A stretch of DNA of 37,216 bases. It comes from Kaiparowitsia implicata GSE-PSE-MK54-09C. GTDB lineage: Bacteria; Cyanobacteriota; Cyanobacteriia; Elainellales; Elainellaceae. A model generated the notes under the pieces. It saw only the letters and a list, made by a program, of their open reading frames with translations. It made no database searches and was not told the origin of the DNA. The DNA lies in contig JAHHHI010000017.1 of the NCBI GenBank assembly GCA_019359435.1, positions 1 through 37,216 of the forward strand, given 5' to 3'. Below, one piece after another: positions 17,371 to 23,776 of the stretch (the stretch's first letter is position 1; each line of letters begins with the position of its first letter). The position numbers were made by a program, and so were the translations under genes.

Positions 17371-17925
17371 ATGCCCAACTATCACCGCGTCTATACTCCC
17401 GGCGGGACAGTTTTTCTAACCCTGGTTACGTTCAACCGCAGACCCATCTTTGCTGAGCCAGAGAATGTGAGACGTTTGCGCTGTGCCACAGCTACCGTCA
17501 AAGCAGAAATGCCGTTTGACATAACGGAGGCAATGGTTTTGCCCGATCATCTTCATCTTTTGTGGACTCTGCCGCCGGGTGACAGCGATTACTCGAAGCG
17601 AGTAGGACGATTAAAGGTGTTGTTTACCCGGTTGCTGCGGGGTAACGGCGTGCTGCCCCAAGATATGTGCCGTTCGCGGCAAAGGCACCGAGAAAGTGAT
17701 GTATGGCAGAGGCGATTTTGGGAACACACGATTCGCAATGAGGCGGATTGGGTGGCGCATGTGAATTATTTGCACTATAACCCGGTAAAACATGGGCTGG
17801 TGCGGTGCCCCCACGAGTGGGAGTATTCAAGTTTTCGGTGGTTTGTGGGGAGAGGAATGTATGAAAAAGATTGGGGATGCGGGGATGTTGAGTTTTCGGG
17901 AAAGGGGTTGGATGTGGGGGAGTGA
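17371..17925 (+). CDS. REP-associated tyrosine transposase (RAYT)
   Basis: A 184-residue single-domain Y1 HUH nuclease of the TnpA-REP type, which nicks and rejoins single-stranded REP hairpins. The HUH histidines are in MVLPDHLHLLW (His60, His62). The likely catalytic tyrosine is Tyr133 in HVNYLHYNPVKHGLV. The N-terminus PNYHRVYTPGGTVFLTLVTFNRRPIF and the end WEYSSFRWFV are family hallmarks. It appears intact. REP-like palindromes lie on both sides and a deletion derivative of the gene follows, so it probably mobilised these repeats. There is no HIP1 site inside. Confidence 0.93.
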   Translation: MPNYHRVYTPGGTVFLTLVTFNRRPIFAEPENVRRLRCATATVKAEMPFDITEAMVLPDHLHLLWTLPPGDSDYSKRVGRLKVLFTRLLRGNGVLPQDMCRSRQRHRESDVWQRRFWEHTIRNEADWVAHVNYLHYNPVKHGLVRCPHEWEYSSFRWFVGRGMYEKDWGCGDVEFSGKGLDVGE

Positions 17926-18247: not shown

Positions 18248-18550
18248 TTATGCATCATGAGGCTTGGTGGGAGATATTTTCAACCTAGCCGAAAATTTAA
18301 CACCAAACTCTAATCCAAGCTCTAGTTCTGCTTCCCAATTAAGGTTTCGTTTTCCACAGGCTTCAGAGAACTTCTCATAAACTGTACCCACTAATTCGCT
18401 GATATCATCAATAACCTTATCTTCATCTAAGAGGAACGGAGCTATTATCACTTCTTCTGTTATGTCATCTGAGTGAATTAGCTCCGCTTTATGAAGAACA
18501 ACTACATTAGGATTTAAAGAAATTACTCTTAGCTTTCTAAGTTCACTCAT
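18248..18550 (-). CDS. Trypco1-like (CU044_2847-type) small protein
   Basis: A 100-residue protein, third gene of a leftward operon. Its ATG lies inside the end of the retropepsin gene (8-base overlap), so translation is probably coupled. The C-terminal part, ISELVGTVYEKFSEAC..WEAELELGLEFGVKFSARLK, resembles the trypsin-co-occurring domain 1 family: an EALDKI-like helix followed by an EFG-K-SA strand. In that family the domain accompanies proteases and other effectors of bacterial conflict or signalling systems. It is AT-rich with no HIP1 site. The family call is from pattern memory and needs a profile search. Confidence 0.6.
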   Translation of the reverse strand: MSELRKLRVISLNPNVVVLHKAELIHSDDITEEVIIAPFLLDEDKVIDDISELVGTVYEKFSEACGKRNLNWEAELELGLEFGVKFSARLKISPTKPHDA

Positions 18551-19094
18551 TTACTTCTTCACTCTGCCTAATAGGAAGAACTTTAGAAAATTCTAAATAC
18601 TTTTTCGGATAATCTATCTTTAAGCAAAGCTCCTGAATTGTCTCCGCTCCTAGAATCCCAAGAATGCTGTACTCTGAAAATTTTTCCGATAACTTACCTA
18701 TTGCAACTTTGGAACGCCCAAGAGAGATTTTCCCCTGAACTTCTTGTCCATCTGGTTCCATTTTTTGCATTATCTCAATATTTTCAACCATTCCTCGTTG
18801 ATACTGGGATCTACTACCTACTCCTTGACCTATCACAGAACCTCTTTGTAACTCTACACCAACAATTTTCGCAACATATTCGCTCAAAACAGTAACTTCA
18901 GCACCTGTATCGATAAGCAAATCAAATGCTTGCCTACCTTTTTTACCCTCTATAAGAACTGGAACAACGCACAATTTCAATCCTTCAAAATTCAGATTCT
19001 TTTCAAGATTGAATGGAAGCACAATCGCCTTATAAAGAAGCTTAGCAGAAGCAATATCTTGGATGGCAACTTTAGGCTGTAAAGGCTCTAACAT
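18543..19094 (-). CDS. Retropepsin-like aspartic protease
   Basis: A 183-residue single-lobe aspartic protease. The catalytic motif is FDLLIDTGAEVTVLS (Asp62-Thr63-Gly64), followed by the flap-like GQGVGSRSQYQRG and the C-terminal ILGAETIQELCLKIDYPKKYLEFSK, which is the second hydrophobic-Gly element and closing strands of retropepsins. Such enzymes work as homodimers. There is no signal peptide. It is the middle gene of the operon, 23 bases after the phycobiliprotein-like gene, and overlaps the Trypco1-like gene. Its substrate is unknown; the neighbouring phycocyanin-like protein is an obvious candidate partner (inference). Confidence 0.85.
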   Translation of the reverse strand: MLEPLQPKVAIQDIASAKLLYKAIVLPFNLEKNLNFEGLKLCVVPVLIEGKKGRQAFDLLIDTGAEVTVLSEYVAKIVGVELQRGSVIGQGVGSRSQYQRGMVENIEIMQKMEPDGQEVQGKISLGRSKVAIGKLSEKFSEYSILGILGAETIQELCLKIDYPKKYLEFSKVLPIRQSEEVNE

Positions 19095-19117: not shown

Positions 19118-19879
19118 CTACGCGATGCTTGATTCCGCTCTATCAAAATAGGATGCTAATTCACTCAATAAATCCTGATGTTCAGGTGCAACTATTGGTT
19201 TACTAGTTTTAGCAAGAGGCTCAGGCTTCTCATCAATTTTGTTGGTAAAGAATGTATATATGCTATCTCCACTAAGTTGACCAACTCTGTCAGCCAACTT
19301 GTCTAAATCATGATCATAATATATTATCTCTCCTGCTGATGGAAATCCATTTTCAGACTTAGTAACCTTAATAGTTACCCATTGCTTAGGGTAAAATTTA
19401 CGTATCTCTGAGATTTTTAATTCTCTCAACTCATCTTGCTCTTCCTGAGAGGTAAGTGATCTAAGAGCAACATCCTTCATTTTTTGAATAGCGCTTACGA
19501 CTGAACCAATAGGTACACCTAGCGCAACATAAGTCTCTCTCAACCCATTTAAGCAGCGATCATCCAAAATACTGGCATCACCAGCAATTAGAGCGTAAGT
19601 AATGTAACGCAAGATAAAATCCATATCACGCAGACAAGCTGCCATACGTCGGTTAGTGTAAGCGTTACCACCAGGTTCAATAAGTTGAGGTTGTTCAGCA
19701 AACAACGCGCGAGAAGCAATAACAACGATCGCAGGAGCGTTTTTAGTAATGTGGGATACAGCTTCCAATCGCGCTGTTCCACCAGCAAGCATGGATCTCA
19801 ACTCATCTAATTGAGCACTGCTAAAATACTCGCCTTGTGAATCAGCCTGAGAAATAACTTTTATGAAGGCCTCATTCAT
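19118..19879 (-). CDS. Phycocyanin-beta-like protein with about 90 residues inserted in the second bilin loop
   Basis: A 253-residue protein. Residues 1-143 follow C-phycocyanin beta (CpcB) closely: [49 protein letters not shown] and [22 protein letters not shown]. Retained are Asn72, Arg77-Arg78, the bilin cysteine Cys82, Arg84-Asp85, Asp13 and Arg91 for alpha-subunit contact, and Cys109. CpcB would then have a short loop carrying the second bilin cysteine (about 153). Here residues about 144-236 are foreign, containing [20 protein letters not shown] and [13 protein letters not shown], with no cysteine. The final CpcB helix then resumes ([18 protein letters not shown]). Normal CpcB is about 172 residues. 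A GGAG ribosome-binding site lies nine bases before the ATG. It is first in an operon with a retropepsin and a Trypco1-like gene, AT-rich, with no cpcA nearby. Unlikely to be a normal phycobilisome rod subunit. Confidence 0.88.
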
Positions 19880-22387: not shown

Positions 22388-22600
22388 GTTCTTGAGAAAT
22401 CTAAGAATTCCATCTCGCTGAAAATACTTTATTTATCGGGATTCTAGGATTTTCTGTGCCGCCAATGCTTGACACAAAGCATGACCGATATACTACTCGG
22501 CTACTACTGTGTGTCGATATGAATGTAGGCATCAGGAATCGCAAGGGAACTGAAGCTACACTGGATACCAACTTAAATCCATCTATTGGTTGACATCTGT

Positions 22601-23776
22601 ATGCAAGAAAAAAAGCAGACGCTTGGATTGTCGCTTCGCCAGGTTAGGAGCCTCGTTGGCTACTCCTCTTTATACGAATTTGAAGATTTTATCCAATCCC
22701 ATAGTTCCTCCTCTAAGCTATTTCAAATTGCAGATTACTCTACCTTTGAAAAAGGACGCCGAGCCTATAAAGCGCTTCAGTATGTAGATAAAACAGGATC
22801 GACAGGCAACTTTGTGGCTCGACAAATCATTCCAAAAAGTAGTCGATTTGAGCTAAAAGAAGAATATGAGCTATTCTTGCCTACGTTCAACAGTCCGTTT
22901 GAATTATTTACGCTGCAGTCTATTGAAAAATGGCGCGATCGCTGCCAGTATGCCGCCTGTTACATCAATGAAGTTTGGGCTACAGAGCTATTGTCTTGTC
23001 AGTACTTGATGGAACTGATTAAAAAGTTTGACCATATTTTTATCGGTCTGCACCACTGTATAGACGAGGTAGCAAAAATCACAGGGCGACCTTGCACCTA
23101 CTTGCCTATTGGAATTGATGCCGTTAAGTTCTCTCCCTATCCAGCAGTTCCACCTCGCAATATTGATGTATGCAACATTGGTCGCCGTTCTGACATCACC
23201 CATGGCGCACTCTTGGAGTTGGAACAATGTCAAGGATTTTTTTATTACTACGACACTATTGCTAGCCGAAGCGTTGTAAATGCAGCGAAGCAATCAACCT
23301 TTCATGTTAACAGCCATCGCGAACATCGACTCTTGCTAGCAAACTTACTTAAACGCAGTCGATATTTTATTACCAATCGTGCTTTTGTGAATGATCCAAA
23401 ACGAACAGGAGGAAATGGTGAAATTCCATCGCGGTTCTTTGAAGGGGCAGCTGCGGGAACCGTTATGATTGGTGAACCGCCTAAAACTGATGTTTTCAAA
23501 GAGTACTTTAATTGGAGTGACGCCATTATTGAAGTACCGTTTGATGAGCCACAGATTGCTGACATTATTGCTGATTTGGATGCATCACCAGCACGGATAG
23601 AGACCATCCGTAGAAACAACATGGTGCATGCCATTCAACAACATGACTGGCTCCATCGTCTACGGGTGGTTTATGCGTCGTTAGGTTTAGCCCCAACGGA
23701 GCAAATGTTGCAGCGTGCAGAAATCTTGAATGCCTTAGCTTGCCAGATTGAGAGTGGTGCTGAACTAATTGCTTAA
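22601..23776 (+). CDS. Glycosyltransferase, GT-B fold (group 1_2 / CgeB-like)
   Basis: A protein of about 391 residues, probably transferring a sugar from a nucleotide-sugar donor to a surface polysaccharide or glycoconjugate. The N-terminal half carries the acceptor-side fold (QYAACYINEVWATELLSCQYLMELIKKFDHIFIGLH, then TYLPIGIDAVKFSPYP, the typical P-G-D-F linker). The second half has ANLLKRSRYFITNR and GGNGEIPSRFFEGAAAGTVMIGE, the family's donor-binding E..E region. The frame extends to a TTG at 22586, but the ATG at 22601 is the better start. It stands alone between mobile-element remnants, with moderate AT-richness and one HIP1 site. Confidence 0.85.
   Translation: MQEKKQTLGLSLRQVRSLVGYSSLYEFEDFIQSHSSSSKLFQIADYSTFEKGRRAYKALQYVDKTGSTGNFVARQIIPKSSRFELKEEYELFLPTFNSPFELFTLQSIEKWRDRCQYAACYINEVWATELLSCQYLMELIKKFDHIFIGLHHCIDEVAKITGRPCTYLPIGIDAVKFSPYPAVPPRNIDVCNIGRRSDITHGALLELEQCQGFFYYYDTIASRSVVNAAKQSTFHVNSHREHRLLLANLLKRSRYFITNRAFVNDPKRTGGNGEIPSRFFEGAAAGTVMIGEPPKTDVFKEYFNWSDAIIEVPFDEPQIADIIADLDASPARIETIRRNNMVHAIQQHDWLHRLRVVYASLGLAPTEQMLQRAEILNALACQIESGAELIA

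Follow-up and report, generated by a model that had tools for sequence, protein, structure and literature searches.

A phycocyanin beta-chain paralogue with an inserted protease-partner domain in a three-gene protease cassette of the cyanobacterium Kaiparowitsia implicata

Phycobiliproteins are textbook light-harvesting parts, and in the beta chain of phycocyanin (CpcB) the loop that carries the second bilin lies on the outside of the disc. An insertion within a phycobiliprotein domain is seen in the core-membrane linker ApcE, where it lies in the PB loop. Phycocyanin also has a described connection to proteolysis, in that the small adaptor NblA links beta-phycocyanin to the Clp protease by binding the N-terminus of beta-phycocyanin (as described in PMC7966870). 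The Microcystis phage Ma-LMM01 encodes an NblA as well, which is reported to be expressed early (PMC4103541). Among named systems, the nearest to the gene cassette presented here is PDC-M08 of PADLOC, to which the resemblance is weak and which is itself only a candidate phage-defence pair.

We analysed a stretch of 37,216 nucleotides from Kaiparowitsia implicata GSE-PSE-MK54-09C, hereafter the window, and the coordinates of its relevant features are listed in Table 1. The first-pass annotation of this DNA had described an open frame between positions 19118 and 19879 without naming its strand. The frame is present on the minus strand, with its ATG at 19879 and the end of its stop codon at 19118, and the plus strand across the same interval contains many stops. 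Pfam family PF00502 covers residues 7-147 of the product, P0001 (E = 2.4e-54; 183.9 bits against a cut-off of 22.2). Its best PDB match is the CpcB chain 7efv_B, aligned over residues 2-140 and again, weakly, at residues 235-253. The last 18 residues scored on average 57.8 against 20 CpcB tails, a value that none of 20000 shuffles reached (maximum 30.0), and no other 18-mer of P0001 scored above 12.9. All three results agree with the original claim that residues 1-143 and the last 18 residues are CpcB-like. The foreign domain of some 90 residues that had been proposed for the second-bilin loop measures about 92 residues and is predicted to fold alone.

Table 1. Coordinates of the fused gene, its parts and the two genes downstream of it (positions in the window)
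Feature	Position	Strand	Size or residues	Remarks
Fused gene P0001, CpcB paralogue with inserted protease-partner domain	19118..19879	minus	253 aa	
CpcB part of P0001	19451..19879	minus	residues 1-143	homology, conserved columns
Cys82 codon of P0001	19634-19636	minus		
Insert of P0001	19175..19450	minus	residues 144-235	replaces second-bilin loop
Predicted folded core of insert	19238-19423	minus	about residues 153-214	helix-strand-strand-helix-strand
CpcB C-terminal helix of P0001	19121..19174	minus	residues 236-253	tail alignment
Retropepsin-like aspartic protease	18543..19094	minus	183 aa	23 bp downstream of fused gene
Third gene	18248..18550	minus	100 aa	overlaps protease gene by 8 bp

With the NCBIfam CpcB equivalog TIGR01339, P0001 scored 216.6 bits, below the cut-off of 279.3. 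An ordinary cpcB, 65% identical to P0001 and adjoined by a chain recognisable as cpcA, sits elsewhere in the same genome (C70:86001), so that P0001 is an extra paralogue. It shares with CpcB the fold family, residues 1-140, the Cys82 pocket and the C-terminal helix. It differs from CpcB in that a domain replaces the second bilin cysteine and its loop, and in that no phycobilisome gene was recognised beside it. The insertion in the ApcE of the same genome (locus L008, recognised by eye) sits in a different loop from that of P0001. Domain-family searches matched no known sensory or output domain in P0001.

The bilin sites of P0001 were compared with those of 38 CpcB rows, selected by a strict tail pattern that left out 32 phycobiliprotein rows (2 allophycocyanin-type, 30 CpcB-like). 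Cys82, Asn72, Arg77, Arg78, Arg84, Asp85, Asp13 and Arg91, all listed at first pass as kept, match residues that are identical in 38 of the 38 rows; we take residues 72, 77, 78, 84 and 85 to be members of the bilin pocket around Cys82. The proposed loss of the second bilin site was borne out as well, as the only cysteines of P0001 are at 82 and 109 and the second bilin cysteine (153/155) is gone. The additional argument from positions 35 and 39 holds in part. Glu39 replaces an Asp that is found in all 38 CpcBs, whereas Thr35 says little, because position 35 varies among them (N 25, S 9, T 3, A 1).

Conserved columns were analysed across all 68 CpcB rows. P0001 is changed at 12 of the 84 columns that are at least 98.5% conserved, seven of these changes being conservative, and departs from the commonest residue at 36 of the 73 variable columns (Fisher p = 2e-6 for variable versus conserved columns). 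Four of the 12 changes, K36A, D39E, N42S and A56S, affect the stretch of residues 35-56, which holds nine conserved columns and is presumably near the second bilin. Ordinary CpcBs depart from the commonest residue at a median of 19 of the 73 variable columns and never at more than 30, which puts P0001 clearly beyond every one compared in its divergence. The median dN between P0001 and the CpcBs is about 0.25, while dS, defined in 27 of 68 pairs, is saturated or, among the pairs listed, at least 2. This speaks for long-term purifying selection on the CpcB part, although the estimate covers the entire branch and some of that time may lie before the fusion. The CpcB tree puts P0001 on a long branch, separate from the 68 other CpcBs, but support for this position is weak (85/70). 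Its median identity to CpcBs is 67%, compared with 85% within the 38 CpcBs, and reaches at most 71% among the matches listed.

Residues 141-253, used as a query over 388 genomes of the class, found besides the window a 90-aa frame in genome G271 (E = 6.4e-10), and the insert is 35% identical over 65 residues to the 78-aa small protein of locus L011 in that genome. As judged by sequence comparison, the insert is homologous to a small protein of about 75-91 aa that is usually encoded by a gene of its own. A small-domain profile built from six members detected 44 places in 21 of the 388 class genomes, where at most the best 14 candidates were scored in some genomes. An overlapping draw of 283 phylum genomes added 6 places in 6 further genomes, so that the two overlapping draws hold 50 places in 27 genomes (from 51 detections, one place in L082 being split by a stop). 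The profile of DUF5678 (PF18929) did not match the insert, and matched four of the six alignment members weakly (best E = 0.047; 14.0 bits against 23.2).

A protease-like frame follows the small domain directly downstream on the same strand at 31 of the 50 places, some of these frames looking broken or lacking an intact DTG. Another two places lie at contig edges and 17 have no protease behind, so that the pairing is not obligatory. The window differs from these cyanobacterial pairs of small protein and retropepsin-like protease in that its domain lies inside a CpcB and a third gene comes after the protease. The first-pass annotation had attached importance to the neighbouring protease, and this gains substance from the homology of the insert to a small protein that is often encoded just upstream of such a protease. 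Small-domain frames exceed 200 aa at only two of the 50 places, the window and genome G519, and both are phycocyanin chains, whereas the other 48 are at most 152 aa long. Among the 36 genomes of the window's family, counting its own, every other match at E = 1e-50 or better stops at or before residue 141, and one relative only, G214, has small-domain genes. An identity survey for other insertions in CpcB scored the best 6 candidates per genome among the matches listed, and the absence of such insertions rests mainly on the profile searches. When the same architecture was sought in other cyanobacteria, as had been suggested at first pass, the CpcB version was found in the window's genome only and an alpha-type fusion was found in G519.

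The small-domain family is varied in its arrangements. Genome G230 holds 11 copies, of which six have no protease behind, and a protease-like partner in G214 (L066:1719-2102) has DKG in place of DTG and is perhaps inactive. A small-domain protein in G495 (L159:1154-1579, minus strand), encoded upstream of a protease, carries at its N-terminus an extension of another kind, about 65 residues long (VQLQIPFQVLVDAIASLKIEEKR...), and the small domain seems to carry varied front modules.

The protease gene of the window scored 29.8 bits with PF13650 (cut-off 24.3). Its product has DTG at residues 62-64 (18903-18911; DTGA) and ILGILG at about residue 144, and a later ILG motif is typical of retropepsin-like proteases. 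The protease motifs are intact. A pattern search of the genome contigs with the protease alone returned no relatives. Locus L011 holds, in this order, the 78-aa small protein, a retropepsin-like protease with 29% identity to that of the window, and a 106-aa protein with 48% identity to the third gene of the window. The sequence of L011 recurs in L032 of Microcystis aeruginosa LEGE 91341 (3204 of 3204 positions). The same three genes in the same order were found in L031 of M. novacekii, to which L155 of genome G527 is identical (3231 of 3231 bases). This leaves two Microcystis genomes with the three-gene cassette, each counted once among the 50 places (as L155 and L070). Because the insert, the protease and the third gene match L011 and L031 in order, the window carries this small-protein cassette with the domain of its first gene inside CpcB. 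All three genes and their order are shared, but the first gene of the Microcystis cassette stands alone, with no phycocyanin. Genome G525, of the same genus group, has a Microcystis-type small gene without a protease behind it (L156:1052-1731, minus strand), and an unrelated-looking 146-aa gene takes that place.

The third gene is rare, with matches in two of the 388 class genomes including the window's own. The profile of Trypco1 (PF19493) did not match it, and was the top hit of the Microcystis copies at 16.6 bits against a cut-off of 24.6. Direct comparison of the third gene with Trypco1 by hhalign gave a probability of 11.7%, against 0.8% for a reversed control. A distant relationship to Trypco1, which has been described beside trypsin-like peptidases in conflict systems (PMC7159879), is possible.

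Base composition sets the block apart from its surroundings. Within P0001, GC3 is 0.315 for the CpcB part, 0.261 for the insert and 0.333 for the tail, and the protease and the third gene have 0.283 and 0.277. The ordinary cpcB of the genome stands at 0.566. Eight further genes of the window were measured, of which seven have values of 0.54-0.65 and one, the glycosyltransferase gene at 22586, has 0.393. The dip in GC spans about 18-20.3 kb of the window. Since the low GC3 is common to the fused gene and its partners, the three genes probably arrived together, as a unit, from a low-GC donor. Viral contigs scanned with CpcB, the third gene and the insert yielded no relative, phage records gave no match to P0001, and PHROGs gave none to P0001, the protease or the third gene. 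Six plasmid records matched P0001, none over more than 66% of the query, and the two inspected among those whose match runs past residue 150 are chains of ordinary length.

The second fusion, in G519 (L158, 703-1731), encodes 342 aa and consists of an alpha-phycocyanin-like chain with the small domain at its C-terminus. The chain matched PF00502 (E = 3.5e-18) and TIGR01338 (E = 1.5e-26; 93 bits, far below the cut-off of 269), its nearest solved relatives are alpha phycocyanins, and a DTG protease follows 5 bp downstream. The bilin cysteine is absent (KCARD has become KAARD), and another cysteine lies seven residues on. The small-domain tree unites the window with the Microcystis type (100/100) and places G519 with the common two-gene type. 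A single-clade origin of the two fusions was rejected (p-AU = 0.003), a test that is limited by the long branch of the window. Because chain, fusion point and domain subtype all differ, the data point to two independent fusion events. That both of the long fusions involve phycocyanin chains is hard to ascribe to chance, though two is few. The G519 chain also contains four tandem repeats of 75 nt (25 aa; DILELLW...PEF), inserted after about residue 27 (L158:780-1070).

The link to defence systems was assessed with the PADLOC models of PDC-M08, where we take 'PDC' to stand for 'phage defence candidate'; the abbreviation is absent from the main text of the two PADLOC publications consulted. The insert alone matched PDC-M08A weakly (E = 0.0013 over 22 residues), as did the small protein of L031 (E = 0.0032). 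Three of the six alignment members matched this model. Among further small proteins, that of L159 matched at 0.022, and those of L160, L026, L016 and L012 and the G519 domain did not match. The window protease matched PDC-M08B (E = 3.4e-7), but so did three retropepsin-like proteins from outside such cassettes, used as a control (E = 2.9e-6 to 4.7e-4), so that this match is mostly generic.

Our preferred reading, which we put forward tentatively and would not yet call probable, makes P0001 the first component of a protease cassette of three genes, with the insert as docking site for the protease and the phycobiliprotein fold as the part responsible for recognition. The cassette would comprise a small partner, the retropepsin-like protease and the third protein, with the partner domain now placed inside a CpcB paralogue and presumably still able to dock the protease. 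The insert probably points outward at the rim of the CpcB fold, since the loop of the second bilin faces the outside of the disc. Its placement and its compatibility with the ring are inferred, as a full-chain AlphaFold model of P0001 made without an alignment was discarded (pLDDT 38.8). The isolated insert, modelled with three sequences (pLDDT 74, core blocks 77-88, pTM 0.59), is predicted to form an independent fold, in the order helix-strand-strand-helix-strand. Fold searches with this model gave no match at E < 0.001 and a best Z of 2.9, a weak match that is no proof of a new fold.

The phycobiliprotein fold would then serve binding rather than mainly light capture, and would show a phycocyanin surface to a binder, which may be an alpha chain, rod linkers, or NblA from the host or a phage. 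Such a binder would either have the protease brought to it, P0001 acting as an adaptor for a target as NblA does for Clp, or trigger the protease, P0001 acting as bait. P0001 keeps a CpcB-like N-terminus and the host genome has NblA. Together with the binding of beta-phycocyanin by NblA and the NblA of a phage, this means that the adaptor and bait readings both follow. NblA-Clp is a works-like comparison only, in which a small adaptor ties phycocyanin to a protease (PMC7966870); adaptor and protease class are unrelated to those of the window, and in P0001 the phycocyanin chain would be a covalent part of the adaptor. The bait for phycobilisome-targeting factors suggested at first pass is compatible with these results and strengthened by them, as a candidate role only.

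Several other explanations have to be weighed against the guided protease, beginning with the gene itself. It was seen in one genome, whose assembly consists of 109 contigs with an estimated contamination of 4.41%, and it might be an artefact of assembly or sequencing. However, such an error would have had to produce two in-frame joints, a foreign codon usage that is uniform over all three pieces and a gene order that is matched in Microcystis, next to a sister fusion in G519. This makes chance or misassembly unlikely, and we regard an artefact as barely conceivable. A real gene could still be a mere passenger, a small gene that landed by chance in a spare cpcB whose shell now simply carries the domain. 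The long branch outside other CpcBs, the reduced median identity and the restriction of this form to a single genome would fit such an accident, but the frame is kept through both joints, the pocket and conserved columns are largely kept, and a second phycocyanin chain was independently fused, and we consider a passenger improbable. The recurrence of the fusion makes a functional tie between phycocyanin chains and the protease pair the best reading. We think it quite improbable, too, that the phycobiliprotein shell is a cage that holds the small domain inactive until protease cleavage or unfolding upon pigment loss frees it, with the protease acting mainly on its own partner. The domain indeed lies between two anchored helices of one fold, from which release needs cleavage or unfolding, and the protease is encoded next in line; yet the G519 domain sits uncaged at a free C-terminus, and 48 of the 50 places encode the small domain in short frames.

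The most substantial rival is the integrated decoy, comparable to the decoy domains built into plant immune receptors. The cassette would be a phage-defence module, in which the CpcB copy baits a phage factor that attacks the phycobilisome, such as phage NblA, and thereby unleashes the protease. The matches of small domain and protease to PDC-M08A and PDC-M08B, the signs of horizontal transfer in the codon usage of the cassette, and the existence of a phage NblA (PMC4103541) are in its favour, as is the G519 chain, which does without a bilin cysteine as a bait may. Against this, the PDC-M08A matches are weak and absent in several relatives, the PDC-M08B match is generic, PDC-M08 is only a candidate system, P0001 keeps its bilin pocket, and no obvious defence genes were seen among the neighbours read by eye at a few loci. 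On balance, we judge a decoy unlikely. It is very unlikely that P0001 is a pigmented sensor of light or redox state acting on the protease by way of a bilin at Cys82; light, redox and starvation sensing were among the roles suggested at first pass. Cys82 and the presumed pocket residues are intact, but to our knowledge phycobiliproteins do not act as photoreceptors of this kind, no sensory or output domain was matched, and the light sensor is left unsupported because the sister fusion lacks the equivalent cysteine, even if another one follows seven residues on. A toxin-antitoxin reading of the cassette was considered and set aside.

Beyond the earlier annotation, the analysis adds a third gene to the cassette, its counterparts in Microcystis, a likely horizontal transfer and a second, independent fusion of the alpha type. 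A literature search, which covered titles and abstract openings and had preprints and most subscription papers outside its scope, found no fusion of phycocyanin or the phycobilisome with a retropepsin or aspartyl protease. Two independent phycocyanin fusions to one protease-partner domain suggest that the fold has a second role, in recognition during proteolysis or conflict with phages, and that antenna proteins can be turned to directing or triggering a protease. The fusions also hint at what the anonymous pairs of small protein and retropepsin in cyanobacteria may recognise. More speculatively, phycocyanin chains of either type, beta or alpha, may have been recruited again and again by cyanobacteria into the small component of a mobile protease cassette, giving either a phycobiliprotein-guided protease or an integrated decoy that guards the phycobilisome against, for example, phage NblA. 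If true, the light-harvesting fold would have a new use, that of a receptor in immunity or quality control.

Some further observations concern the surroundings of the cassette and the plasmid records. A gene for an IS200/Y1-type transposase (PF01797) lies close to the acquired block, at 17371-17925 on the plus strand. A glycosyltransferase-like gene (PF13524) at 22586-23776, also on the plus strand, lies in a second low-GC stretch (GC 0.43, GC3 0.393) and is possibly another acquired gene. On a plasmid of Gloeothece citriformis PCC 7424 (L179), two neighbouring genes are annotated as 'bleomycin hydrolase'; one of them matches P0001 as a phycobiliprotein, and the label looks like a propagated misannotation.
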